From Undaria pinnatifida (lineage: Eukaryota; Sar; Phaeophyceae; Laminariales; Alariaceae): a stretch of 64,000 nucleotides of DNA. The notes beneath the pieces are model-generated. The model did no database searches and had not been told where the DNA came from. It worked only from the letters and a program-made list of their open reading frames with translations. The first letter of the stretch is position 1. Each line of letters starts with the position of its first letter. Positions 1,461 through 64,000 of the stretch are shown in pieces. Both the position numbers and the translations under genes were made by a program. Location of the stretch: positions 129,155-193,154 of the forward strand of contig JABAKD010000104.1 in NCBI GenBank assembly GCA_012845835.1. The letters run 5' to 3'.

Positions 1461-3430
1461 AGTGCTACAACAACACCGCTCTACTCTTTATATAGACTAT
1501 GTCGATACTTTCGAGTACGAGCTAGCAGATAGTAGGCGATGAGTATTATTGACGATTTTTTCGATACACCTGCGCCACAGCAGGTAGGTGTACGTCGTAG
1601 ATAGAGAGCTGCTACAGAGTACGTCTACAGCAGTAGTAGCCCGAAAATTTGGACCCTCGCTACTGTACTACTGTTACTGTAGCCAGGACTATCCAAGGAA
1701 AATGCCCATCACGTTCCCAGCAACGAAAACTCGAGGTCACCATCAATATCGTATACCTAGACGAAATACAACTGGTAATACTGCACATAGTAATATATCT
1801 ACCACCACCCAGGTACATCACGCTCCGCAGAGCATGACGGTTTTCGTTTCACAGCGATTTCGCACGCCAGAGCATGCAACAGCGGCAACAATAAACGGTA
1901 CCAGCTAATTAAGTAGCATTGCTGCAGTCTTCAGTTTATTTTATGAATAATCAATAAGTAAGAACTAGTGGTGGCCGCGCGTTTCGTGATGATGGCCTGC
2001 AGATGAAAGATAACACGAAACTTGGTAATGACTCAGGCCGCCGGCACAGCTGGCTGAAAATGCGCTCTCCAAGCAGTTTCGCCAGGCAGTTATGCTTACA
2101 CGTAGCAAAACAATGCATTCCTGCAAGAGTTAGTGACAGCAAAGCAGAGCAGACCACCAGCAGGTCGTATGGTCTGGAGGAGTGGAGTGTTCTGCTGTAC
2201 CAAGGCACCACACGCAACACCGAAAACCTCTCAGGTTCACAATATGGACATTGGTATATGGTTGATTTGTTGCGAGTACGCGGTGGGAAGTGGGTACCGC
2301 TGTACACCAGCACGTGCATATCATATCGTTCGGTAGGTAGTGCATAGAGCGTCGGAGTACCATTCATTGTCACAGCGTAGAGACTAACTAATGGCTGGCG
2401 TGCGTGGTTGCATATGCCATGGCTACAGTACATGATTGCTACTTACACCAGATACACTGCTGTTCAGTAGGAAATGATTGCCTTTCATCACGTTGAATGT
2501 TGAAAAAAATGTTGAACCGGGTATTATCATAGCCCATAGTCTAGACTATATGCACGAAAATCGCCGCGCGGCTGTTACTAATATGCGGTGTAAACTTCAA
2601 GACCTCTACTACTACTCGTATTGATATTAATACCCGTTTGGTATAGTCTATAGTCTAGTAGTTGAACCCGTCATCGATGTTTTATTAGCGTTTTCGCCGG
2701 CAAGGCAAATACATGGTATATTTTAGAAAGCCAACGTCAATCGTCAATGGTTCAGGCAAACGAGGACGATAACGGCATACTTCGAAGTATATGTATATGT
2801 ATGTAGACTATTATAGAAGCCACTCATAACAGGAACAAGCACATCGACATGCAGTAGTAGTAGGTGTTTGATTTCAAGTTTACGAGATACACAGAGGGCT
2901 TCGTGCAGGTTCCTTCGGCAACCCAAAACAAAAACACGACGCGTGCCTGCCGTAACGCGCTGACGTTGATAGTATATCGGTTGCTCCGGCCCTCGTCCGG
3001 AGTATAGACTACACATTCGCCTGTTGTCTTGTCATATGCGTCGATATGGATGGATGTTTTTTTTTAACTGAAAATAAATGCGTGCGCATGCAGACTCTCA
3101 TCATATCGATTTTCGGTTGGTGCTTGGGTGGAAACGTACTGAATCGTGAACACCATATAACCCGCCAACTCACTGCCTGCACCGACGCAACCAACCAAGG
3201 AATGGACTAGCCGATACTATTAATAGCCCCGTATTGTTATGGAAAGTGCCACCATCCACGAGGGGACCATAGCTCGCTCGCTCACGCAGCCAGCAGATAA
3301 AGTACTGGGCTAAGCAAACCGGCATCGGCCCTACGTATGTTTGTCGATGGTTCGAGGCTGACTACCACTGCGTTGTTTCAAAATGCCACGCGAGGCTTCA
3401 GTGCGATATTAACGGCACGTGCAGCAGTGC
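1460..3430. other. No gene recognised
   Basis: Open frames here are short, overlap on both strands and show no recognisable motif. The stretch includes TA-centred micro-palindromes at about 2541-2554 and 2642-2660 (TAGTCTA type) and a perfect TACTTCGAAGTA at about 2779. No repeat family, tRNA or splice-compatible exon was found. Confidence 0.4.
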
Positions 3431-3572
3431 ATTGGAGCGCTGCACACAGGCCCAAGTTGCTAGGGTAAGGCGTTGCCCTCCTGCTCCATCTTTGTTTGGG
3501 TTGTTTTGTAACGAGGACGCGTCGAGAGCAACAAAAAAATACCGTACAAAGTTGTATCTAGGTCCGCGAAAC

Positions 3573-3911
3573 CTAACAGACCAGACCCATCGTTGTGTGA
3601 TTGGTTATAGCTGGGCGGCACTTTTGCCGAGTGATCCACATCTCTTGGGTTGAGAGGAAGGCGTTTTCACCTCGGGAACCTGTCCTCTCTAAGTATATAT
3701 CTGCTATCCGTTGTTCAGTTACGAAGAGAGCTTCCGGCAGATCTATCCTCGCCAACGCAATTGAACCCTCCGCGTGGTACTGGAAGTCCTCGGTCAGCCG
3801 CCCGTGCGTGGGATAAACCCGTATCCCATGGAATTTAAAAGAGTTTTCCATGATCTCCCAAGCGCGTAACAAACGCGTAACAACAGCCGAACTGACACTT
3901 TCCTGCATCAT
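3573..3911 (-). CDS. Unrecognised open frame, possible exon
   Basis: A 112-codon minus-strand frame has a mixed, non-repetitive composition, with stretches such as YPTHGRLTEDFQYHAEGS and LPEALFVTEQRIADIYLERT that read like protein. No family was recognised, no signal peptide or membrane segment is seen, and no neighbouring exon could be joined to it. The opposite strand is also open over part of the stretch (3601-3816), which weakens the case. It could be an exon, a decayed gene fragment or chance. Confidence 0.2.
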   Translation of the reverse strand: MMQESVSSAVVTRLLRAWEIMENSFKFHGIRVYPTHGRLTEDFQYHAEGSIALARIDLPEALFVTEQRIADIYLERTGSRGENAFLSTQEMWITRQKCRPAITNHTTMGLVC

Positions 3912-3914
3912 TTA

Positions 3915-6860
3915 GGAACAAGAGGCTTCTCGATGGGAAAATGCCGCGGGTGCGGCGTAGAACGGGGCCACGGGATGTTTTTTTCGTCGATTTCAAAGAC
4001 ACTTACTTTTGATACTTGTATAGTCTAGTTTTGTAGTTGCGCTGACACACCATAAATTATGCATACAGTACAACAACAACGGCGCAGCAGCAGCCGCGCT
4101 TTGTACCCTTTGCGTTGTGAAAACCACGACGTGTGATCGCTAGTGTGCAGTACTGAGCGGGGCATGATCGAACGACGACCTTGTTTTAATGCCCACCGCA
4201 AAATCAATGACACACCGTCGGATCTCATTATGTCATGGAATTTTCTTTGCTCCCCGTGTTCAACTTGCGACACCCCTCTTGTCAGGGCACCCACAGTCCC
4301 AAGCAAGGGGAATCTTGTATTGCACGATTGATTCCAGCGCGAACTGCACTCACTCGTCGTGTTTGAGACGCGTGCAAGCTTGAGAAAAGCGCCTGTTCTG
4401 GTGGCCAAATCGTAGAGACGAACAAGACAGAGTGGATAAGTAGAGGACCGGAAGAAAGAAAGGGATCGATAGACACATCCTTTAATTATATCTTTAAAGG
4501 AGGTTCATCGAGGAGGGGGCAAATAAGTGCGATTAAACGTCTTGGTAAAGTCTGCAAACTAAGACTATTGTATTGTCGTGCACGAGCTGTTGTTGTAATG
4601 GCCGTGTAGCCGCCACACGGCGGCGTTCCCTGACAACCCCAGTAGCGAGATGTAAGTGCCAACTTCCCGATGGAAACAACTCCACGTGTACAGCTTACTC
4701 TACACTATACTGCTGCGTACGTACGTACCGAATGACAAAGGGGATATAATGAGCTCGCTGGCCGTCTTGCCGAAATGTCTGTTCGACTGAATTTCTGAAA
4801 AAAAAAAATCCAAACTACGCAAAAAGAAGAGTGTCATCTACGCTCGTGCGTATTTAATCGAAACGCTGCGCATCATCTCCTCCAGGTACATGATATTATG
4901 GACCTGGCAGGAAATATGAGCATCATACTCCTTTTCGTTCCAATAGTTTGAACCTGTCGTTTACGATGTTTCGTTATGTTGTGCTGACCCGCGAACACGC
5001 GGTCGTCATATATATAGTGTAGGTATGGAGATTTTTGAGCTTACGATCCTAACCCTTACACGTACTACTTAGCACTACTAACCGTTAGCACCGACGAGAT
5101 GATATGTAACTTCTTGAAGGTGTTGAAGGGATGTTAGGGTAACTTTATGTAAATAGCGATGCTGTTTACCGCAGTAAGTGTCCCCAGCATTGCGAGCAAC
5201 TCGGCCCGCTCGGCACGAGAGTCCGGGCAAGGCAAGCCGTGGAGAACTCCTCCGAGTGAATTCATGACCCGAGTATACTTCCAGTATTTTAGTAGGTATA
5301 CTGTGTTATACCAGGTATGTCTTTATTCTTGAACACCGTGGAAACCGATAAACAATTACCCCCCTCCCACACTAGTGCGGACACTGACTTCGTGTACGAG
5401 TATATAACACATAGCCAAAGACGCGGACCAAGGCTACACGGCGAGGGGGGGTACCCCCGTCTTCCCATCTCTACAACCGGGGTTTCTCTGGACGTCACTG
5501 ACAAAAGTACTTTGGGCTGTTTTTTGGCGAAGCGTAGATAAACAAATCGTATCACAAAAGAGACAGGGGAGTTTGTCTGACGCACGCACAGGCAGGTGCC
5601 CTGGTCGGAATGGGTTCACGGGTGGGTTCTCATGGTGGCAGCACCGAAGGGGTACATGTGTAGACACGAAGTAGAATTTAGAAGAACGAGGTATAATACC
5701 AAGAAGAGATGAAGCAGATAGATGTATTAGTGGGGACCTCCCCGAGGTCCATGTAATGTCGCCCGGGAGAAACATCCCTGTTGTCTCCACGAACTCCCAG
5801 ACGGTTTCATCACCATCTCGTACGCCTCGTACCGTCGACAGCCTCCCTACCAGGTGCACGAGATAATACAAACCTCGAAAATATACCGGCGATTCAAAAC
5901 ATGACAATCAAAGACTCAGATCCATGTTATCATGCTCAAAACTCACATACCAAAGCCAAATAATATGAGATTATCTATAAAAATACAAAATCCAGCATAT
6001 TCCAATTGAATGACATCAAGCAGTAGTCAGCACTGAGCTGCTGTAACATGGAGCGTCTGCCCCAATAATTAAAAACGGTCATCAGCTAGCTGGTGAATAT
6101 GATTGAAAAGTGTGTCTAACGCAAAGCTGCAACATGTATGTTGAAAACTCAAATTCAAACATCCAAAATATGAATTTCAAGAACTAACTTCAACATCAAC
6201 CCGGTAATTAGCACTCAGCAGTTAGTTAGTTGTCGTAACCAGGAGATTCTGCCTCCTCAATAATAAAAAAATACTGGTCATCACCTATCTGGCGAAGATG
6301 ATAGGGTTGAAACAAGCGCGTCAAAGGCACAAAAAACTGCTGCAGAATAGAATATCAATTCTTGACCTCAACCGATAATCTCAAATCTCAACCTTACCTA
6401 CTAAACAGAGATTGTCTCAAATATCCGAAGCCGGAATCGAAAATAATAGTCTGTCGAACTCATGGGCTTGAAATACCTAATATCAAAATCAAAATACCTC
6501 AAATATCAAAAGCCATAGACTGATAATCAAGAGCCTGCCAAACTCAGAGGCCTAGAATATACCAGGTATCAGCATCATAGTCTACTCCAATATCATACCA
6601 GCAGCCTATATCATTTTCTCGAACTAATAACCAATCAATGCAAAGAAATAGCCTCCCCGCGAAGAACGTCTACATTGCGTCCATCCAGTTAAAACATCAT
6701 GGAGAAACCATAATGAATGTACGGGACTCTCAGTTAGTGCGGTTGGCCTGCATATATACGACAAATTCTTCAACTTACGAGTTTCTCCGGAACCCGTCAA
6801 GAAAAGCTGGATATTAGCGAGAAGAACATCCTCACGTATTTTTTTGTCTGCTAAGTAAGG
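3915..6860. other. No gene recognised
   Basis: No convincing gene is seen in this 2.9 kb. The longest frame is a 157-codon minus-strand frame at 5434-5907 with no recognisable motif. 5900-6620 is AT-rich with repeated short words such as AATATCA and CAAATATC, and no frame of useful length. TACCAGGTA micro-palindromes occur near 5312 and 6558, and a TAGTCTA near 4021. Confidence 0.35.
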
Positions 6861-6985: not shown

Positions 6986-7679
6986 CTACTCCACTCGACA
7001 AAGAAAGAGCAAAGCGGGCGGGTGGGGGGGATTTTTTTTGCACATTTAAATACAAATCTTAGTGAACTCCAGATGCCAAGTACTTGGGCACGTGTCACGG
7101 ACCGCTCGCGTAGTCACTCGGCCTCCAATCTGTAATCAGAGGGTTGGTTAATGCATATTTCAGCAAACGATAAGCCTATAGTCTACAGACCTTCCCTACT
7201 CTCTACTTGGCAAACTATATATATTGCAGGGGGGGGGATCTCTACTGCTTCTCTAGTTAGTGTCTACTCCTGCCCCCACCTTTCAAATAACAAATGACAC
7301 TGCTACGTACGACTTTATGGCGGCTTCTACCCACGTGAAAACCGCAACACGTACTTTGGTACTCCGAAGTATATGCATCAAAACTCAAGCCAAGTTGGCC
7401 AAAGCGCCGTTCACGTGAAAATCGCGACAACTTCCATACATACCGCCTGCCAGACGTGGCGAAATACAACGTAGTGGTGGGTCTATCTCTGCGATATTTG
7501 ACCAGATAAAACACAAACTATATAGTCTAAGCCAACACATTATACTCCTCCTGCCGATTAGACTATATACGTTAAAAACAACATAAACACCACAAACAGT
7601 TCTTGAAGTAATACAAAAACCCGACAATATCCTCCGGGATGGACTATACATTAATAGCAACTCCACCACCACAACACGC

Positions 7680-8010: not shown

Positions 8011-10129
8011 CTCTACCGTACGTTGTTTCATATTTGACGAACGAAGTATTGGCTCTATAACCACGGTATTGGACTATGCAGTAGTAATAATACTGTCAGG
8101 AACCGTTCCCTGCAAAAATGAACAAAACCAAAAGACGAAGTACGACGTATGCCTCCACCGTACTGTTAGACGGCGGTAACATATCGTCAGCCGTTCCTCC
8201 AAAAGAAACTAAAAACGTGCCGTGTAGTTTCAATGCGCTAAGAAAAAGTTGAAAAGCTCGATGCAAACACGACAGACACCGTTCGACAGTAAACACGTGT
8301 TTTCTCCTCCTTACCGAGCCGCAAATCGCCTTAGAACACTAACGTACACACACGCGGCATGCGAGCACCGCACCCTCAAACGGCAAAACGGAGTTGTTCC
8401 GCTTCTCATCGAGCTGCAAGATAGCCAACACTGCGGACAAAACTACTTCGAAGTATACGCATAGTCTAGAGATATATAAAAACTTGCGGTGACACAGCAA
8501 GAATGGCAGGAACACCGAGGGAGAAATAATGCCAGCGAGCGTGCGCCAGGTTTCGACCAGACATTCGATGCCCCAATAATAGCTACTGCTGTATATATGG
8601 GCTTGCATCTATGCTTCGACGTTCCTACAACGAAAAATACTTATCCGAGACTACCACCACGTATTTCGTCCCTGCCAACGTGCACACGGTTTGAAATGGG
8701 TTTGTTGGACGACCGCGGACAATGTCTGATTGGCGTCCAAACCGTCCTCGCCCGGTGCACTGTTGTTGCTAACTTAATCGTCTCGCGCCAGGGCACGACC
8801 TCTTCGTAGGCGTGGAATTTACAGAGTACATGATATTAATACAGTGCAAGCTAGCGTTGCACGCATCACGCGTAGATAATCAATCGCCACAAACGCCAAG
8901 GCAGCTGCTGAATGCTTTCACATCAAAAATGCCTCGGGGGCAGCAATGTTCGCGCGCTTAACCCATCCTTTTTATGCCCCTTTCGATCTGTCGCCCTTGC
9001 GGTCTCCTTCACCGCAGCTTGTATCGCTCTCTCAGGAAAAATCTTTTGTAGGGTCGTTAAACAATTTCCCAAGATGTAACCTTCCAATCCCCACCGCAGG
9101 GCAGCACAGAATCGCGCGGACACTCCATGTCACAATCGGCGCTCGCTCCGTGCATGTCCACGTCCGACTCAGTGTCGGTACACCGGCACCTGTGATGTTA
9201 GCACGATCGATTCGCGAAATACGATCGGGAAACGAATTATTTGTGGATGGTACCTTGACGCATTGGCATCGCATGCGAAGGATGTGGACCTACACGGTAC
9301 GTTCCTATTCAGAATGAAGCTCGTATTGCGGGCAACGGCGGAAGGCGTATTCTGGCCACAGTCGGCACTCTCTCTAAGTCGGCCACTCGCACACTAGCCG
9401 TTGGTGCGGCCGCGTTTGTGTTCGGATGACGTGTGCAAACAGGAAAAATGTAACATGATTGAGCGGATGAAACGAATGTATGTACCAAATCTCGCAGTGG
9501 TTGCGCAGTAAACTTCACGTTACTTTTTGTTTATAGGTGACTGGCCGAGCCAGTACCACGATTGTCATGTAGACAGGGATGTAGCTGTCGGAAAGCTCTC
9601 CGCAGCAACATTGGAGGTTTGCAGAGTCGGCTGCCGGGATTAGAACGCTTTCCTATATCCACCAAACATATACGCTACACATGGTTGCTGCTTTGCTTGC
9701 TAACCGTGGTGACTCTTTTGCCAATCGGAGATGTGGAAATCTGGGCTGTATAATATTGAATATTTCCATAAAATCTGGTGGTCTGAGGAGAGATTTAGCG
9801 TGGACGTATTCGACCCTCCCTGCCGCGCACTCGAGACAACGAGGTGTGTCAGTCTCGGAAGTAGGAACCTGGTCTACGTGCGTTGGCCAACGGCTTCCTA
9901 AAGCCAGGAGCAGATGCACGTAGAAAGTTTTTCGTCGGCACCCGGCAACCGCACACAACAGACGCTGGCGTGTTCCGACCATACAGCACATTTCGTCCTC
10001 CGGCGAGGGTCTGCTGCCGCTGCCACCACAATATTTTTCGTTGTTTTCTGTTTCCGAAACTCCCGGGGGTATCACATGATACGAGCCACGCTATGATTTT
10101 TTTTTTTCAGCGAGGGCACTGTAGTACTG

Positions 10130-11200: not shown

Positions 11201-11214
11201 GATATAGACTATAT

Positions 11215-11700
11215 ATTCAAAAAATATAAATACACTCCAGCTGTGAGATCGAAGATTTTATCGAAACTCATCTTTGCAAGCTGTGTGTGATACTCCGATC
11301 GCGCGTATTACGGGTTGTGTGTCCTCATTAAGGATATAGATCGGCGACTCCCCTTGCAACTACAGTGTAGCTACCAGGGTCAACAGGGTGATGTTAGGCG
11401 GTCTGTGCGCGGAAACTATAAAACCAGTTTCTGAGGGGGACAAAATCTGACAGCTGTGGAAGGAAATGCATCAGTTTATCAAGTGAATCCTGTATGTCGA
11501 GTAACCGGTGAGGGAAGGGCAGAGTTTTTATGGGCGTGGAGGCCTGATTTTGATCAAAAGGGGGGCGGGAAGGGGGGAGGGGGGGAGGGACGGGTGGGGC
11601 AGCTCAGTTTGTGCGTAGAGGCAATATGTCCTTCTTGTGGGGGAGGGGGGGGGGGGGATGTGTGTGTGGGGGGTGTGTGTGGGGGGGGGGGGAAGGGGGG
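11215..11700 (-). repeat. Family A copy with G-rich body
   Basis: This is a minus-orientation family A copy. It starts with the conserved end ACACTCCAGCTGTGAGATCG, followed by the GATCGCGCG block, GTCAACAGGGTGATG and TGATCAAAAGG. It then runs into poly-G-rich DNA with several runs of eight or more G from about 11568. Confidence 0.75.
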
Positions 11701-12545
11701 GGAGGGCTTTAGGTCGCACAGATGTAGGGGTTTGCTGTACGCCTGGTGCTAGGTCTAGGCGATGGTGCGGGTGGTGGGGAAGGAGGGGACGTGTGGGGCG
11801 GGGGGGGGTGGGAATTGCAGCAGCGGCATGGACAACTCTAAAACGATAATGGGGTGATATCCAGGGCGTGGAAGTGTTTATTACTCTGGCGGATTTCAGC
11901 ATTAGGTGAGGCGTTTAAGCAAGAGAGAGCGAGGAAAAAAAAAGGGGGGGGGGGGGGGGGGGGGGGGTTCAAGAGGTTTAGGTCATATGTATTATTAAAA
12001 TACACTCCAGCTATGAGATCAAGGATTTGGTCGAAACTCATCTTGGCAACATTGTGTGTGATGCTCCGATCGCGCGTATTAATCATATATGTAGGGGCTT
12101 GCTAAACGCGCGGTGCTGGGTTTGGGCGATCGTGCGGGGTGTGGGTAATGAGGGGGCGTTAGAGGGGGGGAGGGGGGATGAATGAAAGCTACGTCATGGA
12201 TGGCTAGAAAGATAATGACGTGATATCAATTGCGTAGAAGCGTTTATTACTCTGGCCGATTTCGATTTTAGTGGGGCGTTTGAACGAATTGGGCGGGGAA
12301 CAAAGGGGGGTGGGGGGGGGGAGGAGGGTGAGATGAGTTGGAGCTGCGGCATTCATGGCTATAAGGATAATGAGATGATATCAGCTGGCTGGTAGTGTTT
12401 ACTACTTTGGTAGATTTTGATTTCAGGTGGGGCGTTTGAACAAGAGGGGGGGGGGGGCATGCCAATATGTGCGCGGAAACTATAAACCCTTAAAGGGGAC
12501 GAATCTGACGGTTGTAGGAAGAAGACACCCCTTTATAACACCCGC
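11700..12545 (-). repeat. G-rich tandem block built from family A segments
   Basis: Three imperfect units follow one another here. Each has a G-rich run, a GATAATG-GTGATATC block, the word GTTTATTACTCTGG (GTTTACTACTTTGG in unit 3) and a GGCGTTTGAACAAG-like end at about 11912, 12283 and 12440. A family A end (CACTCCAGCTATGAGATCAA) lies inside at about 12003, and a closing family A piece with GTGCGCGGAAACTATAAACC lies at 12468-12545. Confidence 0.65.
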
Positions 12546-12809
12546 CTGGTAATGAATATTATTCTAGAAGGTTTGGTGTTACATAGTCTATAGTATGCAA
12601 CCCAATTTTTAGGTGTAGTAAACAACGTGTTAAAAGCTTCATAATTTGTTATTGTGCATGGATCGAAAGATACAATATTTCAATCGATAGGTACAACCAT
12701 GTAGTTACCATTATTTTCTGACATCGCTAATTATAAGAAAGAGATAAACATTATTGCCAAATACAACAGGCGAGGTGATGTGGTCATCATGCAATGTCGT
12801 CGCCATTGA

Positions 12810-13050
12810 GAACGAAAGGGATAAATGCGAATCGTTAGTGTTTTGAAAGGAACGCTTAGTGTACGCGCGCTCAATTACGTTACTTCGTTAGTCATACTTC
12901 GCTTGGCATAGGTTGGGAGGCGATCATGCAGACGGTATGTACAGAATACCCTACGTAATAGGTCGGTAGTGTGGTTTACCGCAAATTTTACATATCTGTT
13001 TGTACCTCCTTTTCATATTAGTATTGTCTCACATATACGATATTACGCCT
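12810..13050 (+). repeat. Dispersed repeat, second copy of 1-245
   Basis: This stretch aligns end to end with 1-245, as described there. It is followed at about 13180 by a plus-orientation family A copy, the same arrangement as at the left edge. Confidence 0.65.
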
Positions 13051-13179
13051 GTGATTTTTACCGTGCCGATGTGGGGCTCTGAGGTCGCCAACTCTAAGAC
13101 AGAGATACATCTTACAAGTACACCAAGCGATATACTCAGTATATAACTTGTTCAAACCCAGGCCCCCACGCCCATGCAA

Positions 13180-13500
13180 TCTCCGCCCTCCCCTCACCAG
13201 TTATACGATGTACATGGCACGCTTGACGAACTGATGCATTTCCTTCCACAGAAGATGTCAATTTTTATCCCCTTCAAAAACAGGTTTTATAGTTTCCGCG
13301 CACAGACTGATTAACCTCACCCTGTTGACCCTGGTACAAGCTACACTGTAGTTCCAAGGGGAGTCGCCGAACTATATCCTCAGTAAGGACACACACCCAG
13401 TAATACGCTCGATCGGAGTATCACACACAGCTTGCAAATATGAGTTTTGACAAAATCTTCGATCTCATAGATAGCTGGAGTGTATAAGTATTTTGAGAAT
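13180..13500 (+). repeat. Family A copy (right half)
   Basis: This copy contains GATGCATTTCCTTCCACAG, GTTTTATAGTTTCCGCGCAC, CACCCTGTTGACCCTGGTA, the CGATCGGAGTATCACACAC block and CAAAATCTTCGATCTCA, and ends near GGAGTGTATAAG. Confidence 0.75.
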
Positions 13501-14645: not shown

Positions 14646-14989
14646 ACATTAACTCGCATAATCCAGTCCGTGGTCACAGGACAGGTTCCAGTCACTTAGG
14701 AGTGAGTGGGAGAATGCCTCAGACAAAATCACATGCATTTAACATAGATGACGCAATTCATGCCTCCGCCAGAAAAATGTAGAACGTATATTCGGGAGTC
14801 AGTGTACGATGTGCTAGGTCCATACTGGTGTACATACGTCGCACTACTCGCGCCTGGAAAAAAGACAACTACACCATTTATTTATTTGCTACCCAGAAAA
14901 GACTACCACATAGTCTATGTTACACGTGGTACCTATTACTACGCATACGCACGTCAGACACAAGGCAATTGGACAAAATACTTGAAAAT

Positions 14990-15075: not shown

Positions 15076-15589
15076 TGCCACAAATAGACTAGTCTAACGA
15101 TTTATGTTGGGTTGACTGGTGATTCATTTGTGGCATGATGTTTGTTTGCCTGACGCGATAGGTCAGTGCTGACAACCAACCGACATTTTTCTGCCGTCCA
15201 TTCTATTGGTACACGAGGCATGCATCGTTCCTCGTTCAGCGGACACGTCAAACGATACACTTGTTGTACTGATGATCAGATTGATGATGATTTGCAGTGC
15301 CCACAACTGGGTTGGGGATATTGAACTTGAGGTTTCGACGTATTTGGGTGTGTTTTGGATTGCTGACTGATTATATCGGGGGGATGTTTTTCGATAAATA
15401 AATAGTGATATTTCGGAGAAGGAATGATGAGGATATATCTTGTACCTGGTATTTATTTTGTGTTTCGGGTACTTGTTTCAAATATATGCTGATAGAATAG
15501 GGAAACATCTGTTTTCGGGATAAGTGTATCAAATGTAGAGACACTAAAGTCTGGTATCAAGACAGACATACAAACAGGGGGAATAACAG

Positions 15590-16060
15590 ATCTAGTACTC
15601 TTGCAGCCTACCTGATGTGCAGGATGTTCACGTAATCTACGGAGGTATGATTCATGATTCACGGATGTACGAGCATTACAGGATATTTTTGTGTTGGGAA
15701 TGAGTGCCTTCTTCTATTGGATGGTGGTGTGTTGCCAGAAAATGTCTACCACCCCGCTGAAAAACATGCCTGCTATGGTGGTATGTTTGGCTTAGTTAGG
15801 GTTGATTCCGATGGAATAAGCCCAGTAGACTATATATTTTAGCCTTATTTTGGTCCAGTTCTGGTCTGGTTTGTGGTCGCCTTCTGGCCGATCTTGACTG
15901 ATATGTCTTGATTGTGATAATCTACAGATACACGCCACAATAATATTACCTAATGATAATTACCTTGGAATTCTATTTTGTATGGGTCACTGCGCAACCA
16001 AGACCCCCTTATTATGAGGTGGGCCAAGCGAGCAAGCTGAACCTGAGCATGCATGGGTTA
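15590..16060 (+). repeat. Repeat shared with 10130-10480
   Basis: See 10130-10480. This copy is longer and continues after 16060 with weaker similarity to 51430-51560 (GATGTGCAATA, ACGTGTTCC). Confidence 0.6.
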
Positions 16061-48640: not shown

Positions 48641-49263
48641 ATCCGCCTCACAACTACGTTCGCAGTGACTGAACGCACATCTTACGTAGGCACAAACATG
48701 ATAACGCGAGCATAAAAATCTAAACCGTCACTCTTTTGGCTGTATAGTGACCACTACCTCACGTGAAACTCAACACGAAACGTGGTGGCTATAGTCTATA
48801 CATGAAAAAAAACCGACTTGGCCAATGCGCCGCTCGCATGAAAAACTTGACAACTCCCACGCCGCCTGCGGGACTTGGTGGAAAGAATCACACACAACTG
48901 TCGAAACACAACATGTACTAGTGATCCTACGGTGTTCGACTGGATGAAGCACAAACTAGTTAATCTAAGGCCTTAGTCTATACTATACTAGACTATACGG
49001 CAGTAACAACTCCACCAACCAACCAACCGTTCCTGCATAATAATCGACATTAACCTCCTGGACGAACCACGGACTACTATAATATATACGTGATATATTA
49101 ATTATGTGCGGCCGCATTAGACTACGGTACTCAGGAATACTACACAGGGACTCTACCGTACCCGGTATTATATTGGATGAAACAAGAATTAGTGCTTCTA
49201 GTTGCGGAATCAGAGCACCAGGTATGCCATAGTAATGTTAATACTGTCACGAACCGTTCCTGT

Positions 49264-49352: not shown

Positions 49353-51439
49353 GGGGCCAAAGACACCAGACAAAATCAGAAGTGAGTGGTAGTATTAGAC
49401 GACCGTAATCATATCACCAGCCGTTTTTCCAAAACAGACTTGAAACGTGCTGCGTAGTTTAAATACGCTCTAAAAAAGTCGAAAAGCTCAATGCGAGCAC
49501 GACAACGTTTAACATCAACACGCATCTTTCGCCGCGCACGGAGCCGCAAATTCGTTATAAACACACACGGAACACGTATACGCACTTACATGTACAACGT
49601 GCAGTACGGCACTTGATACGTCATGAATGACAGGAACACCGTGGGAAGAAATGATGCCAGCGAGCGTGAACTAGATTGCGACTGGAGGCTCGATGCCTCA
49701 ATAGCTACAGTAAACATGGGCTTACACCTGTACATCACATGCAGCCAAGCCGATGAACATATCGCATGGCAGGTAGCAAGCAAGCAACTCGCAGCCTTTT
49801 ACTTAGGTCATAGCTATGCTGTGACCGTCCTATTAGACTAATACTGTCAATACCCTTTTAAAACTAAAGAAAAATTAAACTTGTTCTAGACTAACTCCAT
49901 GTATTTGGTCTATTCAAACGTGCACACGGTTCTGAAAGGGTTGGTTACACGGCCACGGGCAATATCTAACTGGCGTCCAAACCGTCCCCGTCCGGTGCAC
50001 TGTTGTTGCAAACTTTGTCGTCGCGCGCCATGGCACGACCTATTGGTAGGGGTAGGAACATACAGTACATGTTACTAATAATACAGTGCACGCTAGCGTT
50101 ACACGCACGACGCGTAGACAATCGATCAACACAGGCGCCGAGACAGCTGTTGATTGCATTGAAGCACAAACCATCGCGGGCGGCAATGTTTGCGCGCTTA
50201 ACCCAGCTTTTTTGCGTCCCTCTGGAACGATCCTTCTCGCGCGAGCGCTCTCGTTCACAGCAGGGTGTATCGCCCTCTTTGGAAGAAGACTTTGTGAGGG
50301 TCGTTAAACAATTTCCCACGATGTAACCGCCCAATCCCCACCGCAGGGCAGCACAGAGTCGCGTGGACACTCTGTGTTGCAATCGGTGCTCTCTCCGTGC
50401 ATGTCCACGTCCGACGCGGTGTCGGTACATCGACACCTGTGTTGTTTGCACGATTGTGTTGCGAAGTACGATCGGAAAACGAATTGTTAGTGGATGGGCA
50501 CTATGTGGGTCTTGACGCACTGACATTGTATGCAAAGGATGTGGACCTACAGTACGCTCTTATTCGGAATGAAACCTCGTTTTGCGGGCAACGGTGGTGG
50601 GTAAGCTTATCCTGGCACAGTCGACCCCCCCTCTCTGTCTAAGCCGGCCAGTCGCCCTCTGGCTGTTGGTGCGGCCGCGTTTGCGTTCGGATGATATGTA
50701 CAAACGAACAACGGGAACATGCCTTACGTAGCGGATGAAGCGCATGCATTCAAATCTTGCACTGGTCTGTGCTAGTAAACATTACGGTCTCGCTAGGTGA
50801 CTGGCTAAGACAGTACCACGCGGAGGGTTGTCGCGTAGACAGAAATCAAGCTGTCGGAAGGCTCGCTGCGGCATTATTGGATGTTTGCAGAATAGGTTCC
50901 CGAGACGAGAACGCTTTCTGAAAACTGCCAAACACACATGCGCGATATCGTCGGTGTTTCGTTTACTAACCATGATGACTCTTCGACGAATCGGGGATGT
51001 GGGAATCCGGTCTATGTTACTGACTATTACCATTAGATCTGGTGGTCTGAGGACCTATTCAGCTTGGATGTGCTCGACTCTCGCTTGCATCGAACTCGAG
51101 ACAACGAGGTGTGTCAGTCTCGGAAGGAGAGATCCTGGTCTACGTGCGTTGGCCAAGGGCTTCTAGCCAGGAGCAGACGCTCGTATCAATATTTTCATCG
51201 GCAACCCGGCAACCGAACACACACAAACAAGCGTGTGTAGTGTGCCAACCAAACAACACCTTTCGTTCTCCGGCGAGGGTCTGCAGCTGCTGCTGCAGCT
51301 ACATTTTTTTTTTTTGGTGCTGTTCGAACCTCCGGGGGTATCCCATGATATGAGCCACGCTACGATGCATTATTTTTACTACAGCGAAGAACCACTAGAG
51401 TACTGCTGTTTGTTTCGACACACTTGATCTTCGCCTCGT

Positions 51440-51925
51440 ATCATTGTCGCCCCTGGTTATTGCGGTACCCGTGAAGTCTCATTTATTCACGACAGGTCCT
51501 ACAGTAATGGGGAATGTGCAATACAGATATAGACTACAACATGTATACGTGCTCTCTCCCCGTGGCGCTCTTTACCTGGCGGGACGCACCCCCTTGCATG
51601 AAGAGCTTAATATCTCACCCGGAGCATGACTTGGAAGACGTTCGTTCGCGCAACACGACCAAGATTTCTAGGCGCTAGTCCTACAAACAATCAAGGTGCT
51701 GGTAAAAATGATCATACTCGTAACAAAGTTAGTACTAAACGGCGTTTGGCTCAAGAAATGCAACCGCTTCCACCGTGGTATGAGCCTTCACCGACCAATG
51801 CTGCTCTCCATAACATTGGTTCCAATCGTTATTAACGTTGACAAGTGTCAGGGCTTCTCTCGGCTAGCATTGGCTTGACGTCGGCGCTACGTTAGGGTGC
51901 TTTAAGTGTCAACATATTTTTGTTA
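51440..51925. other. No gene recognised
   Basis: Plus-strand frames at 51444-51629 and 51626-51835 overlap in different frames and have no family. The first part is weakly similar to 16085-16200. Confidence 0.3.
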
Positions 51926-52430: not shown

Positions 52431-52726
52431 TGTAACACCGTGATGTTATGTTACTGCACCAGAACACCGACCTTTTCCAGAAGAACCACAACGAACGGTA
52501 CTACTGAGTTATAACGTCCGTGAGTACATATTGAACACCGTGCTGGTTATGCGATTGATTATCGAACGCCAACACTATGGTAGAACGTTGCGAAGCCGCC
52601 GCCGGGTTAGCTCCTATAAGGTAGCTACTGTAGGTAGTATCGGAGTTTCAAGTTGTTCGAGGTTGTGCGAAGTTTATACCAGGTATGTTTTTGCGTGCGT
52701 CGATGGAAACAGATGGAAAAACTCAC

Positions 52727-55700: not shown

Positions 55701-58700
55701 CATTGAAGCCCAACAAAATTAACGAGCATCCACTGGACATCAACGCGTGCTTTTGCCCGCGTATGATCTACAGTTGCACATTCACTGTGTCCTTGCCTCA
55801 AATATTGCAACCCAATGTCGAGAGTCAAAACTCTCACGGACGCAAGAGCGACACTATCCGAGGCTGATTATTAGCGGTGTCTTTGCCGTCGATATTAATG
55901 TTAGATTGCCACGTCTGGTGTACGACCGCGCATACACCGGCAAGGAAAGCCAATTTAGTTCTACATGCAGGGGCGTCGCGAATCGTTCGCACATTAGTCT
56001 CGATTTCGTTGTTGCTGACCACGTTCCCGCGGCAGATGTCCTCGCCACGCGAGTAGTTCTTTTCGTCGGCCCATTGGGCGCGTGCCGTTCCAATGTCTGA
56101 GGGAATGGGAAAGCGGCAAGACGAGGGCAAGGCAGGGCAATGGCTGAGATTACGTTGACCACGTGCTGTGCACACATGTGGGACGGCAAAAACGTTTCTC
56201 CACCATAGAAACGGGTTTTACGTAGTCTTAAGGAAGGAGCCGTGTACTGAAGCCACATATATACACATGCTCTGCTACAACCAGAGTATACTAAATCGAA
56301 CACGCGGAGATGCTGGTTTCCGGCAGGAGGCGCGGTAGTCGTGAAACTAGTTTTTTGTCAAATTGGGACCACCTCCCCGCTTGGAGCACAAAGTACGCAC
56401 ATGTACGTTAGGGGGTACGTTGAACGCTCGACTTTGGTTTTCACCGGTAGACTCCTATTCCGTGGTTGTGGCTCACGCGTCGGTAGCGGTCGAAGCCATT
56501 ATCTCGCTACGGATTCAAGTACAATCGTCAACCGTCACGAAAGCATCGTCTTCATAGCATCCATGTACACGCAACCCAAGAGTTAGTGTAAATTCAGCAG
56601 TTTTTGAGGGCTTGTTGCAGGAGGTTCTCCTCAGATGTACGTTTCGCTCATTTCCCTGCCTCTTGTATCGATATTGCCCCTACTAAACTGCTACTGTATG
56701 CCCCTTATAGCTGTCTCACTCACATATTCCCTCCCCGTTCTTGCCCGCGTCGTCGTCCGCATATTGGTAGTCGAACAGACCGCAGTCACGGATTGTATTA
56801 CCGTCAATAACCGCGTTTGTAGTGAAGTCTAGAGGCGAATAATGTACCACAGAGAAGGTGCGCGCAACGCGTAGGGCGGGGTTGGATACAATTGTTACTT
56901 ATAGATGATACCATTCGTACACCGGGATTCCTCGTGCGGTCAGCTATCAAGTCTTGTCGAAGAGGCAAATACAAAAAATAGAGAAACTGGCATTTCGGTC
57001 GTTAGCGCCGTGTTAGGTTGTGATTTATTATCGTTGAGAACCGATAGAAGCACGCGCAGGGGTTCGTCGGTCAGGCGGGGGCGGGATGAGAATCGAAGGC
57101 AGGGAGACGATTTCGCCCTGCGCAGGGTATCTATCGCATTGGTTAGCCGTCGACGTCGGGCACATTCACTGCTACATCGTCTTAGAAGCCGTGTTCCCCG
57201 TTTGAAACTGCTTGTGTCGACTACACAGCAGTAGCTGACCTAGCGATTCTCGCATTGACTACAACGCTGCCCTCGATTTCTAAGCCTCGCGGGTGCGAGA
57301 GCCTTCAGAACCGTGCCCGTGGTTCCTGAGAAATTATACTACAATGGGAAGTACAGCAGTAGTTTGGAATCGCATTAGCAGTTCAGACTCACGGCGGAGA
57401 CGAAGGCATTCAGCTCCGGCGTTCTGAAGTACCATCCCGGTGACGATCAACCCGTCCAGGGCGGACATGTAGCCTCCACTCCGCTCCGTCTCGTCACGCG
57501 ACGCTGAGGTTGTTACGAAATAACAGAAATTGTTACGCTTAAGGTGATTTTTTTCTTGGGATATCGTTAAGTTACTGCAGCAGCATAGTCTATACCTAGG
57601 GATACGGTTGTCGTTGGCATTGTTTGTACGTGACCGTGCTTGATGCCAAGAGAATGTCTTGCTATCTTGTACCTTCTCCACCAACCACAAGAGGTTGACC
57701 AACAGCGGGCTCTCTTACATAAATCAACGATCCCGTTCTAAGGGCCGTAGGGGAGACGTCGAAATAAACCTACATGCGTATCGCCTCCCTGCTTGCGAGA
57801 GTACGCGCCGTAGATACATACCGTGGTAGTTGGTGGGGGATAGTTGACACGTCGAGATGTTGGCGTTGGTGGCTTGTTAGGCTACACACCTACTTCGTAC
57901 TTGACCGCCTGTCTGTTGTTTCATACCCCTGGTGAGCAAGTTTCCGTGCAACGAAAACGTACAGTATCGATTGGTCATGCCTACCGTTCAGCAACCATTC
58001 TTTCGACCGTGCGCACCCCACCCAGCAAGCAAGCAAACCATTCCTCGAAATGTCTTTCCCGAATAAAAGCACTCACCACCGACATGGAGGAGGCTGTCCC
58101 TGTAAGCATCTGAGGCGTTGTCTTCATCAACATCCCCAATTAAATCGTCGTCCCAAACCTGTCCGTCTATTGTAAAGTCCTGCAAAAGCGGGATGAAATA
58201 CACACGAACGAGTAGAGGCGGGAAGAAGGGTCGATTCGTTGTGCTTCGACAATCCAAGAGCTCCAAAGTTCGTCCAGCCTTTGACGATAAACTTTTCGCA
58301 TCTTCCCCTTATACGGTGTATGCGCCGCACCTTCGGATACCGTCGTGGACTGTGTTTACGTGTTTGAAGGCTCTTTTGCGGTCACATTCCGTAAGGTAAA
58401 CACACTACTTAACGGTCGCCAGCCACGTCAAGCATCAGATGACCGGCTAGGTGATGTGGGGTCTCTACATCGTTGGCGTTGATAGAGCCCACACTGTGCG
58501 GTACCAGCTTTCAAACCCTATGTGCTTGGTTGAACTCTCGACGATTTCGAGTTTGCGTTGACCGCAAAGCAGCCCTCGTCTAAATGTGCAAATAGTTGTT
58601 GTCGGCAACACTCACCCAGCCGTATGTGTGAAGAAGACGAGGGAAAATACGCTTGCTACGATAGAGGCAAAGTGGTTTTTCCGTCTGAAACATTTTCTCA

Positions 58701-60490
58701 ATGACGGGGCTCCTTAATCCAAAATGGTCGGGAATACGCCATTTTCTTTCTTGATTACCCCTAGGCCAGGTGGTGATTTTTCATTCGGTCGCATTTGGTG
58801 GTGATTTTTCATTCGGTCGCATTTATACTCCTTCTCCAAATCCTTTTTCGGGTGAAGAAGATCATATCTTAAGCCCCAAAAGTCAGGAGCCTCTATCGTA
58901 GCTCGCGTCAAAAGGGCAAACGGGCACGACGAGGCATTCTCAACAGAACAGCAACGAAAAACGAATGTCTAGCCAACGTCTACGCGGAGAGATACAATTC
59001 GAACCTGAAGAGTGTAGTAGTCGTGCTTGATCTCGAACAGCCTAGAGCCGTCTCCCGAACCACGTACAATCACGTTGTCCGTTCCTCCGACCCCTCTGAT
59101 GGTAATCCTTGCGTCTGCGGTGCCGTCCACCTATGGAAAGCAAACAAGCGCGTTAAACATTTTGGGCTATGAGTGGCTTTTTTTGCTTTTCCCGTGCGAT
59201 TATGATTGAACGATTGATTGCCATGGGTTAGCCAGTGGTCACCAAGACTTGTGGGCCGAGGGGTCTGGAAACAAAGACCGCTTCGAATAGCCGCATTGAC
59301 CAAAAAAATGGCGTTGAAGCTGAATGCACTCCGATAAGAGACTCCCCGTTTAATGTGTACACGTGGCTCGGTATAACTAGATACGGCGTGTCGCTGTGAA
59401 TTGTCTGTGTTTCAGGTGGGGGGAGTAACAGGAGAATGGACGAACAGGGGTGCGGTCAAGCACTGCCGTCCCTCTGGATTGTGGACGTTGTTCGACGCAG
59501 CATGCACCGCATGGCTGTGGTCTAAACATCAACAGTAAACTATCACTTTTTAGCGACACAACTGCTGCCCGTCGAACCGCAACTTCGTCATGAAATTGGC
59601 TTGTCGAACAGCAACAGTAACAGAACTATTCGAGTGATAATACATATGTAAAGTATCCAACATAGATACGACGCACGCGATACACGATGAAGCCTATGAA
59701 ATATGTTACCCCAGAGCATCGCTTTGATAAGGGCTTCGGCATAGATGCGTCTACCTTTAACACGATCTCTATGGGTGTCGCAGTTTCATCAAATACACTG
59801 CTATTACGAGGCCACCGTATTTTAGGAGACACGGCCGGAAGCTGGTTTCAAAACCGGTGATTTCGTTAAAGAAACGTTTAAGGGGCTACCGTAGAACGAC
59901 TGTGAACTACCATTTGATGAATGCATGGACCTATCGCGTGCGGCACTTACTTAGTATCGTCGAGCAAGACGCGATTCAAAAAGGCTAAATTAACGTACGT
60001 TGAGCCAACCTCATACTTACAACATATTGCATGCATGTATAACTTTAAGGCACGTGCCGTCCGCGGGGGATGCGCGAATCACCCATGCGGTCCATGAAGC
60101 ATGACCATGAAAGTGGGAACGGTCGGAGCTGCCGTTCGATCGGACAAAATTGCAAGGGAGCATTACCCGCGTCGTTTTCACTCTTTTGGGGCCCAGATAG
60201 AGCACCATCACGACCTTGCAATTCCAAGTACGGCATCAACCCGTGGGTTGTTAGGAGCGCCCAGCGGTGCAACGGAGGGAGCTCTGCGAACGAGTGAGTG
60301 CCTTCGTTCAGCAATCTGCTCAACCACGGGTCTGGGGGATTGGACCTCCAATTTTGCGAACGCAGCAATCAGACAAAAACAGATCCTGCTAATAGTACCA
60401 GCTCCCACTGACCATGGTGACGAGATCTCCAGAGTAGGTGCCGCTCTCAAGGTAGATCGTGTCCCCGGCTTCGATTCTGTTGAGGACACT
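52727..60490 (-). CDS. Secreted beta-helix protein with WSC domain, copy 2 (partial)
   Basis: This is the second copy of the gene described at 19268-36054. Exons 2-9, 12 and 14 have identical lengths to copy 1 or differ by whole codons, and phases match throughout. Exon 10 is intact here and joins exon 9 to exon 12 in frame, so no in-frame stop was found from exon 2 to exon 14. The linker in exon 13 is six residues longer and exon 9 one residue longer. The signal-peptide exon is not in the window; with an intron like copy 1's it would lie beyond the right edge. As in copy 1, the second half of the WSC domain was not found. Confidence 0.8.
53250..53480 (-). CDS. Copy 2 exon 13: linker and WSC start
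   Basis: 77 codons, phase 0, acceptor TCGTGTAG, donor GTGAAT. YDYTGGTYGDNYDPFDECG, a longer Pro/Ser/Thr linker, then AVYLGCFQDVRRERTMDLAY. The WSC part is almost identical to copy 1 (NRL against NTL). Confidence 0.83.
53948..54064 (-). CDS. Copy 2 exon 12
   Basis: 39 codons, phase 0, acceptor TTACAG, donor GTGGGT. VTDNILVDCAAYGVKI, SSPQGEICGNEV, LPEGETEDT. Read-through would stop just after the donor. Confidence 0.85.
54382..54429 (-). CDS. Copy 2 exon 10
   Basis: 16 codons, phase 0, acceptor TTCCAG, donor GTGGAT. ARGTFDNAIQLQILTE continues directly into VTDNILVDCAAYG of exon 12, the pattern expected for a helix turn. The copy 1 homologue has a 1-base deletion. A weaker exon-like frame (54132-54240, YGINTRITVNF) lies in the following intron. 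Confidence 0.65.
54463..54590 (-). CDS. Copy 2 exon 9
   Basis: 128 bases, enters in phase 1 and ends in phase 0, acceptor CGATAG, donor GTGGGT. GISSHADDTTITGNTITN, AAGAGVRVGTSDPDDDGR, QYGINNM. The end differs from copy 1 and is one codon longer. Confidence 0.87.
55484..55574 (-). CDS. Copy 2 exon 8
   Basis: 91 bases ending in phase 1, acceptor GACCAG, donor GTATGC. GNEGVDVKEGCLDTVIENNN, ISMQHDENAG. Confidence 0.88.
55993..56096 (-). CDS. Copy 2 exon 7
   Basis: 104 bases, acceptor CCCTCAG, donor GTGCGA, ends in phase 0. IGTARAQWADEKNYSRGEDI, CRGNVVSNNEIETN. Confidence 0.87.
56724..56828 (-). CDS. Copy 2 exon 6
   Basis: 105 bases, phase 1 at both ends, acceptor CTCTAG, donor GTGAGTG. FTTNAVIDGNTIRDCGLFDY, QYADDDAGKNGEGI. 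Confidence 0.88.
57393..57503 (-). CDS. Copy 2 exon 5
   Basis: 111 bases, phase 1 at both ends, acceptor CCTCAG, donor GTGAGTC. It differs from copy 1 at one residue (ASRDE against AARDE). It sits in a nearly identical intron-exon-intron tract. Confidence 0.88.
58077..58179 (-). CDS. Copy 2 exon 4
   Basis: 103 bases ending in phase 1, acceptor TTTTGCAG, donor GTGAGTG. DFTIDGQVWDDDLIGDVDED, NASDAYRDSLLHVG. Confidence 0.85.
58650..58930. other. Copy 2-specific block in intron 3
   Basis: Duplication copy 1 has no counterpart for this block between CAGCCGT and AACAGCAACGAAA-ACG. It contains an exact 28-base tandem repeat (58769-58796 and 58797-58824) and a 65-codon minus frame with charged composition (DLLHPKKDLEKEYKCDRMKN). 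No family was recognised. Confidence 0.5.
59005..59130 (-). CDS. Copy 2 exon 3
   Basis: 42 codons, phase 0, acceptor CCATAG, donor GTTCGA. VDGTADARITIRGVGG, GSGDGSRLFEIKHDYYTLQ; KK of copy 1 is DG here. Confidence 0.88.
59795..59905 (+). repeat. Dispersed repeat family B, copy 3
   Basis: This holds ACACGGCCGGAAGCTGGTTT, AAAACCGGTGATTTCG and GGGGCTACCGTAGAACGACT. Duplication copy 1 has no such sequence at the matching place. Confidence 0.6.
60413..60490 (-). CDS. Copy 2 exon 2
   Basis: 26 codons, phase 0, acceptor CCACAG, donor GTCAGT. SVLNRIEAGDTIYL then ESGTYSGDLVTM; two differences from copy 1. Confidence 0.85.
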
Positions 60491-60772: not shown

Positions 60773-61035
60773 GACCAAGGCTACGGTAGGAGAATACCCC
60801 CTTTTTTCACTAAGAAGGGGTTTGAGCTATCATACCATCTTATTATACTCGCACGAGTGACTCTGTACTTCACTGACAAAACGAGTTTACACCATAGACT
60901 ATGCTTGGCGCAGCGCGACTAACCTTTGCATTGCGGATTCATGTCGCTAGGTTAAAATAGCACCAAAGAGCTTAAGACCGCAAAGGAACAGGGGGTATGT
61001 CACTCGCGCGAGTGACTCCGGGCCACTACTGTAAA
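60773..61035. mobile_element. Terminal-inverted-repeat element E, second copy
   Basis: The left end GACCAAGGCTACGGTAGGAG is clear. Inner blocks CTCGCACGAGTGACTCTGTA, TTTGCATTGCGGATTCATG (reverse of the 52050 block) and CACTCGCGCGAGTGACTC match element E. The extreme right end is missing or diverged. Confidence 0.65.
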
Positions 61036-61574
61036 ACATGGCCCAAAAACAAACAACCCCCTTATACCGGAGCAGCATCGGCCTGAAACGTTGCCACTGC
61101 TGAATAATTTGGACGCATACTACGACAGAGGCAGCCCTTTTTCGCAATGACGTTTGGCGCCTTACCACAAAATATCTTCGGAATGTCGTCCTTGTTTTTC
61201 TATTAGAATGCTGTATACCTAGGCTGTGGGTTTGTTTGGCCATCGAGTTGCATCTTTAGTTTGCGTGTACAAGAGATGCACCGTTTGTTTGCTGGTAATA
61301 TGTTTACATGGGTGAAGTATAGAGCTCTTTAAGAAAAGAGTCTCAGAAACGTGTGGTGCCCCTCTTTCGTACGTAGGTCTAGCATGGTGCTTTCATACCA
61401 AGCTTATGTGCAACCCGCACGCACTCGCATTTCAGCGTCACTAGGCGTGGCAAGCGCCTATCGTACGACCTGAGGTGTATCAAATACAACCGTACAGGCA
61501 TTTAATAGCAGTGCTTTGCAGAACGGATTGGCCGCATGAAAACATAGTTGTCTAGTCTATAGAGCAAGTTTAAA

Positions 61575-62980: not shown

Positions 62981-62984
62981 CAAA

Positions 62985-63070: not shown

Positions 63071-63164
63071 TATATGCCAGAAGGTTACTGACGGTAAAAC
63101 ATCTTGAACGAGTTGAGAGCTCTGAAAAGAATAAAGGCGAGAAATGCCGATAAAAATGATGGTG

Positions 63165-63465
63165 CCGGGGTCGCCCCGCCCGGTGGTGAGGTTATTACCC
63201 TCGATTGCTTGCTGACGAAGTTGCTTTTGAGGCTCAAAAAAAAAAACCTTGAGGGTCGGACTTTGGTGTTCACGTTGCAAAATGACAATGAAGGGAATCA
63301 ACCAACTAACTAGACTAATTAACTAGACCTATGTATCTGCTCAGAGCACCTAAAATCGTGGTTAGGCACTCGTCTATGCTTGCGAGTCGACGGCGGGAAT
63401 ATATAGGCTGGAATCTTCCCGCGATAAAAGTTGAGGCGCGTACTCCGGGGGGGGGGGGGGGGGGA
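63165..63465 (+). mobile_element. SINE-like element S7
   Basis: This is the counterpart of S4 (30175-30395). It starts GTCGCCCCGCCCGGTGG, has CTTGAGGGTCGGACTTTGGT, and a body with CGCGATAAAAGTTGAGGCG ending in a poly-G run at 63448-63466. Confidence 0.5.
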
Positions 63466-63499
63466 GCCTGCGTAGTGAAGCCGGATCTGAGTCGAACGG

Positions 63500-64000
63500 T
63501 ACCATAATAAGGGTTATGCCCCTTTATATGGTGCGGTGGATCGAGGTCTGTCGCGCGATTGACACACCCTCCTGTTCCATGCGATCATAGAAAGGGCTTC
63601 GCGTTGCTTAGACTAAACATTCCGATATGAATCTCCAATGGGATGGTGTTAGACATGTGTCATGCTGCGTCAAACAAACCGCCTCGTAGCTTGTTGTTGT
63701 CAGCGAGGTGCAGAGTCGCTCGTGCTACAATAATAATAGCGGCTCAGACCCGGTGGTAACGAGAACTGGGGGTACTTCCCTACAGTAGCCTCGGTCATGA
63801 TAATCAATGACCTACGTCGTCTGGCGATGGAACCCAATGGAGAAAGAAAACGCGAGGAGATAGTAGAAGGGATGAGTAAAATGAATTCGAATGAAATCAT
63901 ATGGCGTTTTCTGTGGACAATGGATGGATTGCGTGAACTGCTTCCCTGTAAGTTATTAACGCTGTCGTTGCTGTTGCACGAGTTCCCCCAATCATTTCCA
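63500..64000. other. Right edge, one end of element E
   Basis: Positions 63768-63796 match the element E end (reverse complement GACCGAGGCTACTGTAGGGA). The other end was not found within the window's last 500 bases or just left of it. No gene recognised. Confidence 0.5.

Follow-up and report, generated by a model that had tools for sequence, protein, structure and literature searches.

The question raised by a 64,000-nucleotide stretch of the Undaria pinnatifida genome (positions 129,155 to 193,154 of contig JABAKD010000104.1; G000:C7:129155-193154 of a 511-Mb assembly of 68 contigs), referred to below as the window, is why short palindromes bounded by TA recur so often along it, and whether they are footprints left at TA target sites by excised transposons. 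The combined data on word frequencies, aligned paralogues and single TA sites indicated that the TA-core-TA words in excess are mostly, and very probably, excision footprints of cut-and-paste transposons targeting TA. Three or more families would be involved, which probably belong to the Tc1/mariner-pogo group. The window itself contains 21 open reading frames (ORFs) of at least 150 amino acids, the longest of 273 amino acids, and scans of it for tRNA genes and Rfam families gave no match.

The original prediction placed more than 25 copies of TAGTCTA or TAGACTA (together TAGWCTA) in the window. A total of 43 sites was counted (21 and 22, respectively), more than in any of the 100 dinucleotide-preserving shuffles used as the null model (mean 5.1, maximum 12). 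TACCWGGTA was confirmed by word count at all seven places claimed for it, as TACCAGGTA at 5309-5317, 6560-6568, 35382-35390, 36404-36412 and 52677-52685 and as TACCTGGTA at 15443-15451 and 24556-24564 (shuffle mean 0.41, maximum 2). The perfect palindrome TACTTCGAAGTA, expected near 2779 and 8442, was detected at 2778-2789 and 8444-8455 (shuffle mean 0.00); all predicted motif positions were recovered within about 10 bases.

The excess over shuffled sequence was also observed in 20 regularly spaced 10-kb loci (L009-L028; 200 kb), chosen without regard to the motifs at 2-Mb steps and lying on contigs C1, C2 and C13 only. These loci contained 43 TAGWCTA (shuffle mean 13.4, maximum 24), 34 TACCWGGTA (mean 1.1, maximum 4), three TACTTCGAAGTA (mean 0.00) and nine TACGAAGTA or TACTTCGTA sites (mean 1.2, maximum 5), TAGWCTA being about three times denser in the window (43 in 64 kb) than in the loci (43 in 200 kb). 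An order-3 Markov model applied to the window and loci together (264 kb) gave 86 TAGWCTA sites versus 15.6 expected and 41 TACCWGGTA sites versus 1.65, while TACTTCGAAGTA occurred at five sites, two of them within one tandem duplicate. Scaled genome-wide from the 20 loci, that is from 0.04% of the genome, the order-3 excess amounted to about 84,000 copies each of TAGWCTA and TACCWGGTA. The words also occur side by side: genome-wide, TACCAGG followed TAGTCTA within three bases at 340 places and the reversed pattern was found at five.

A general excess of palindromes was ruled out as the source of these counts, since TAGSCTA was not raised either in the window (3 versus 5.1 expected) or in the 20 loci (11 versus a shuffle mean of 15.4). 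The non-palindromic word TACCATA showed no excess in the 200 kb (19 versus 19.5). Other words were raised in the same 200 kb, among them the odd palindromes TAAGSCTTA (7 versus 0.37) and TACASTGTA (9 versus 1.05, the copies lying mostly within one repeat) and, mildly, TACGATA (39 versus 22.5).

Whether the words arose by insertion can be read from the two copies of a segmental duplication in the window. As had been claimed, the alignment revealed clean gains in copy 2 of GTCTA, giving TAGTCTA at 57586-57592 in place of the copy 1 TA at 24375, and of CCAGGTA, giving the TACCAGGTA at 52677 in place of the TA at 19223. One more clean gain, absent from the original prediction, converted TA (19177 in copy 1) to TACTGTA (52626-52632). 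The third claimed difference (26800/59357) stood as a length difference, copy 2 being five bases shorter at 59357 than copy 1 with its TAGACTA at 26801-26807, but it is less clean because substitutions adjoin it. Copy 2 also carries a 12-bp inverted repeat (TACGATAGAGGC...GCCTCTATCGTA) spanning 244 bp at 58657-58900, apparently absent from copy 1, a possible insertion of a miniature inverted-repeat transposable element.

A BLAST self-alignment of 313 kb, in which alignments of at least 72% identity and gaps with good flanks were retained, yielded 364 insertion sites of 3-40 bases. It included eight loci (L001-L008) picked by a match to the footprint pattern, which entered the self-alignment and the paralogue tally and were kept outside the excess counts. 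The conversion of TA to TA-core-TA accounted for 6 of the 28 five-base insertions, with the core GAC in five rows (two of which represent one event) and CAG in one, and for 3 of the 10 seven-base insertions, with the core CCAGG in two and CGAAG in one. An aligned paralogue was available for 10 of 113 TAGWCTA sites and four of these were clean five-base gains, at 57586, at 60895 (TAGACTA, 60895-60901, with TA in the L012 paralogue), at L008:377 and at L012:519. For TACCWGGTA (3 of 57 sites with a paralogue), two clean seven-base gains were found and in the third case the two copies carried different footprint words. The single comparison for TACGAAGTA/TACTTCGTA (1 of 13) was a clean seven-base gain, the TACGAAGTA at 44570-44578, with its five-base core of the CTTCG class, facing TA in the paralogue. 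None of the five TACTTCGAAGTA sites had a paralogue, and for TACWGTA (13 of 62) one comparison was clean and 12 were not, several being copies of one element.

Single TA positions could be followed through many copies of repeated sequence. A repeat of about 400 bases recurs in the window and in many sampled loci, and TA site 1 lies in it at the junction of TGTGTCCTCATTA and AGGATATAGG; TA site 2 lies at the junction of GTACACGCATA and TATCACAGCTG. The insert tallies at both sites count filled copies, whether related or not. At TA site 1, 269 copies genome-wide carried 3-33 extra bases; among the first 100 listed, 38 inserts were five bases long, of which GTCTA (20) and GACTA (15) made up 35. 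At TA site 2 there were 179 such copies, and the first 100 listed contained GTCTA (11) and GACTA (10) as 21 of 29 five-base inserts and CCTGGTA (12) and CCAGGTA (8) as 20 of 23 seven-base inserts, with one insert each of CTTCGAAGTA, CGAAGTACCTGGTA and GACTAGACTA, the last two of which may be read as nested footprints. Near-miss inserts (GACTG, GACCG, CCTGTA and CCGGGTA) were also met at the TA sites and may represent imprecise joins or later mutations. When the split of TA site 1 was moved four bases to the left, 147 filled copies were obtained and none of the first 100 inserts listed contained TAGWCTA, TACCWGGTA or TACTTCGAAGTA; this control matches only copies in which ATTAAGG is intact, and TTA inserts that are also listed for TA site 1 make up many of its rows.

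Seven exact copies of the empty allele of TA site 1 were present in 264 kb. For TA site 2 no exact empty allele was present in that sequence, and four near matches were found in 313 kb. The survey pattern for GATA/CTCC starts with CTTGTGTG, the usual repeat copy reads AAGCTGTGTG and CTTGTGTGTGATA occurs in one 313-kb copy only; the five matches of this mismatched pattern are therefore uninformative on that TA.

In several paralogues and for many inserts at both repeat sites, the neighbouring split serving as the control, the gain fell exactly at TA and TA was retained on both sides, which supports the claim that TA turned into TA-core-TA marks excision. The cores form a small fixed set, and both versions of the central base were found at one site in fixed orientation in similar numbers (GTC/GAC 20/15 at TA site 1 and 11/10 at TA site 2; CCAGG/CCTGG 8/12). 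Moreover, the cores differed in their flanks in the 264 kb, reading outward T then A for GWC and C or T for CCWGG, as expected if, as had been proposed, different cores mark different families.

These properties can be accommodated by the following mechanism. A cut-and-paste transposon would enter at TA and duplicate it; staggered cuts would later remove the element, a few of its terminal bases staying behind at either side as a 3' overhang, and annealing and joining of the overhangs would produce TA-core-TA. With a GAC (or GTC) tip, the 3-nt overhangs would pair at the outer bases and mismatch in the centre, to be resolved as TAGACTA or TAGTCTA. With a CCAGG (or CCTGG) tip, 5-nt overhangs would be paired at all but the central base, and TACCAGGTA or TACCTGGTA would result. 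A CTTCG tip would allow 5-nt overhangs to pair through the last CG only, so that CTT-CG-AAG, that is TACTTCGAAGTA, would be formed, and retention of one overhang would give TACTTCGTA or TACGAAGTA. A 5-nt CTTCG overhang joined via CG or kept once fits both the even palindrome CTTCGAAG and the raised count of TACGAAGTA/TACTTCGTA. Excision of an internal eliminated sequence of the Paramecium type leaves a single TA, and this origin is ruled out here by the TA-core-TA that remains.

A host repair pathway or a nuclease acting at TA could in principle create such micro-insertions without any transposon, and the lack of a matching element at the two TA sites, where dozens of copies of the footprint words were listed, is what such activity would leave. 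Its probability is nevertheless considered low, given that the cores are few and fixed, each with a flank preference of its own, and that GWCTA and CCWGGTA make up most inserts of five and seven bases at both TA sites, words absent from the first 100 of the 147 inserts listed at the shifted split. Still less credit is given to functional motifs, slippage or mutation bias as the origin of the words. Some inserts do look like slippage, namely TATATA (9), TATATATA (5) and TTA (7) at TA site 2 and TTA (22) at TA site 1, each among the first 100 listed, and for TATATA and TTA this origin may hold. The GWC and CCWGG cores, by contrast, are not copies of their flanks, the gains measure exactly five or seven bases and are bounded by TA left and right, and the lack of excess of TAGSCTA also speaks against a motif or mutational bias of this kind.

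The counts could also stem from a small number of real events, if each repeat family had received one footprint or a few that were later multiplied by repeat copying. Pairs of neighbouring filled alleles (C1:2235326 and 2236817; C18:1180343 and 1181557) are of the kind that local duplication gives. Against this stands TA site 2, which alone shows both central bases, three classes and nested forms, and the 8-base flanks of the 41 TACCWGGTA sites in the 264 kb look unrelated by eye; repeat copying as the main source is regarded as just as improbable as slippage. Excision footprints are retained as the preferred explanation.

The excision reading calls for source elements. The DNA transposons detected fall into three groups, namely elements with duplication of ANT, a DDE_3 family and DDE_1 pogo-like elements, none of which is the source of the three main cores. 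When the 313 kb and L055 and L056 were scanned for terminal inverted repeats (TIRs) with CCWGG or CTTC at their ends, no source element was revealed. The sole long CCAGG-ended pair (window 11372-13336) proved to be two inverted repeat copies, with homology continuing through the TA. At TA site 1, 12 matches with GWC lacking the following T were inspected and no TA-type element was seen among them; they comprised an ANT element, near-miss footprints and, in L064, an insert about 100 bases long that lacked a matching right end. At TA site 2 there was one candidate, C26:26075011 (TA followed by CCTGG).

Elements with (T)AGAC... TIRs and ANT duplication were located at L011:3600-4352, L019:5468-6752 and L063:112-1203 (about 0.75, 1.28 and 1.09 kb, respectively), and exact ends were counted genome-wide as 435 + 435 for the TIR TAGACGTATTTAAGCC and 31 + 31 for the TIR TAGACACTTATAAAACTC. 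Ten copies were compared at their flanks, which had the form aX[TAGAC...GTCTA]Xt, and X was the same base on both sides in 10 of 10. The duplication is therefore ANT, and TA site 1 when empty is an ordinary CCTCATTAAGG. The flanking bases of TAGWCTA were equal on the left and right at 16 of 86 sites and complementary at 31 of 86, which is not the pattern of a duplicated ANT. The L063:112-1203 element occupies TA site 1, and the TTA insert listed there has the look of a kept double ATT. Seven of nine sampled copies of the TAGACGTATTTAAGCC-type element lay within one host repeat, and an exact pattern of that repeat with 0-14 bases replacing the element gave no match. A Harbinger of the Pangu subgroup with ANT duplication has been reported in Ectocarpus (PMC12477816), and the Undaria elements with AGAC... 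TIRs resemble it, as at first sight they resemble TAGWC. By their ANT duplication they would be Harbinger-like; no transposase frame was noticed in them and none was searched for.

Transposases of the DDE superfamily are encoded in the genome, and none of them is tied to the three main cores. The DDE_3 family gave eight matches (L029-L036) with long ORFs, and its ends read TA followed by TGGTCCGTGCACAACT, seen on the left four times and on the right once. Among themselves, the four shorter members (L029-L032) share about 99% identity, which suggests that the family may have been mobile recently. For DDE_1 pogo-like genes, 82 matches were obtained. One element on C48, of 3,976 bp (L085+L062+L086:917-4896), has perfect 25-bp TIRs starting with CAGTAGG (CAGTAGGTGGCCCTATATAGTGCGG; CAGTAGGTGGCCC) and TA on both sides; a second one on C35, of about 3.9 kb (L091+L058:314-4236), has the TIRs CAGTAGGGGTCCCGGTTTAGCGGT and CAGTAGGGGTCCC..., also with TA on both sides. 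Both elements gave a DDE_1 match in Pfam, one of them together with a CENP-B_N match below threshold, and the split frames in both suggest introns. The TIR ends of DDE_1 groups B and C were sought and none was obtained. At L060:1-5160 a DDE_1 gene is present as an inverted pair with arms 98.5% identical.

The CAG ends of the pogo-like elements predict TACAGTA/TACTGTA as footprints, and TACWGTA was mildly raised in the 200 kb (35 sites, where shuffles gave 17.6 on average and 31 at most). The CAG elements and the one clean TACTGTA gain provide a partial link between element and footprint for this fourth, weaker class.

Several observations weigh against excision as the source of the words. The original prediction had proposed a search for TA-flanked source elements, and none that duplicates TA and has GWC, CCWGG or CTTCG at its ends was found in the scanned sequence; since no full-length one can be shown, the link between footprints and elements is one that we infer. 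The GAC-ended elements with TAGACGTATTTAAGCC and TAGACACTTATAAAACTC are ruled out as the source of TAGWCTA by their ANT duplication. In the 313-kb self-alignment, 9 of 140 three-base and 3 of 76 four-base insertions were also of the TA type, with the cores A, C, CA and GA, which is what slippage in TA runs would give. Among the remaining TAGWCTA comparisons, TAGTCTA at 12584-12590 has a paralogue five bases shorter with substitutions as well, TAGTCTA at 14911-14917 lies in a TA run, with two paralogues only three bases shorter, and is not clean, two further comparisons belong to one shared element and one is unclear. The claim of insertion rather than substitution holds for the clean gains in paralogues and at the repeat sites, but in one of the ten comparisons, L022:3144, TAGTCTA differs from its relatives by substitution, so not every copy of the word is a footprint. 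To our knowledge, there is no citable example of a TA-target family with 5-nt overhangs. Excisions surveyed in rice were mostly imperfect (PMC4423477), and uniform footprints are hence not the rule everywhere.

Sleeping Beauty/mariner elements are cut three bases inside the element, where 3' overhangs of 3 nt remain; the footprint in mammalian cells is identical to the overhang (PMC7827188). The words in Undaria are alike in the TA target, in the TA kept on both sides and in a short core that would correspond to a 3' overhang of terminal bases. They differ in that the cores are GWC, CCWGG and CTTCG(AAG), two of which imply overhangs of about 5 nt, and in that the source elements were not found. 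Excision of the pogo element Passer leaves 0-4 bp behind (PMC9976928). The C48 and C35 pogo-like elements share TA flanks, TIRs and DDE_1, and their CAG ends leave GWC, CCWGG and CTTCG without explanation.

Historical excision of Stowaway from TA targets, with several footprints per site and an insertion beside a footprint, was described for Triticeae beta-amylase (PMC1925063); that study concerns one locus, whereas here about 84,000 excess copies of each of two words are extrapolated. The rice survey (PMC4423477) lists 94 putative excisions genome-wide, eight with just two target copies and the rest with deletions or filler, in contrast to Undaria, where two short words account for most of the inserts of five and of seven bases. 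That survey is the nearest to a footprint census that was met; no genome-wide census of such kind was recognised in the literature searched, many subscription papers lying outside it. A search for the word TACCAGGTA gave nothing related by title among the matches listed.

The remaining footprint words of the window include TACGAAGTA at 44050-44058 and TACTTCGTA at 57891-57899. Composite forms were identified by word count at 2537-2548 (TAGTCTAGACTA, nested, two overlapping copies), 2644-2657 (TAGTCTATAGTCTA, an adjacent pair), 15085-15096 (TAGACTAGTCTA, a nested pair), 25737-25755 (TAGTCTATAGACTAGTCTA, a row of three) and 30609-30623 (TAGACTAGTAGTCTA, a close pair). Single TAGTCTA words were counted at 4021-4027, 6578-6584, 7179-7185, 7523-7529, 8462-8468, 17301-17307, 28629-28635, 33459-33465, 48792-48798, 48974-48980 and 61553-61559, and single TAGACTA words at 1493-1499, 2804-2810, 3005-3011, 7559-7565, 11205-11211, 15826-15832, 35620-35626, 44280-44286, 47555-47561, 48989-48995, 49118-49124, 49834-49840, 49887-49893, 51530-51536, 63311-63317 and 63609-63615.

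Two other features of the window were observed. A C-rich element of about 226 bp with the ends TACGGTAGCCCCCCC or TACGATAGCCCCCCC is present at 34534-34763 and again at L026:1292-1520, and at about 38080-39920 satellite-like GGAAGCTTTCGTGGAAGCTT units are mixed with telomere-like CCCTAA runs.

Excision footprints are usually studied one locus at a time. In Undaria they rank among the TA-bounded words with the strongest over-representation in the sampled 264 kb of the 511-Mb genome, and they behave like a readable record of past transposon movement that the genome keeps though the source elements were not found. What is unusual is the number of footprints, the two cores of the 5-nt type and the fact that the elements have so far not been found. 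It is proposed, tentatively and with more doubt than confidence, that the responsible families (two of them with overhangs of about 5 nt and self-annealing, near-palindromic tips) moved very frequently by cut and paste without gaining copies, so that footprints came to far outnumber elements; if so, such families could be found, aged and mapped through their footprints alone. The repeats act as natural target arrays in which each footprint class can be counted at a single TA, and one assembly could thereby serve to measure excision frequency, end-joining choice and target preference. The footprints also point to transposon families that annotation based on full-length copies could miss, and insertions or deletions of five or seven bases at TA in the Undaria genome should not be taken as random.

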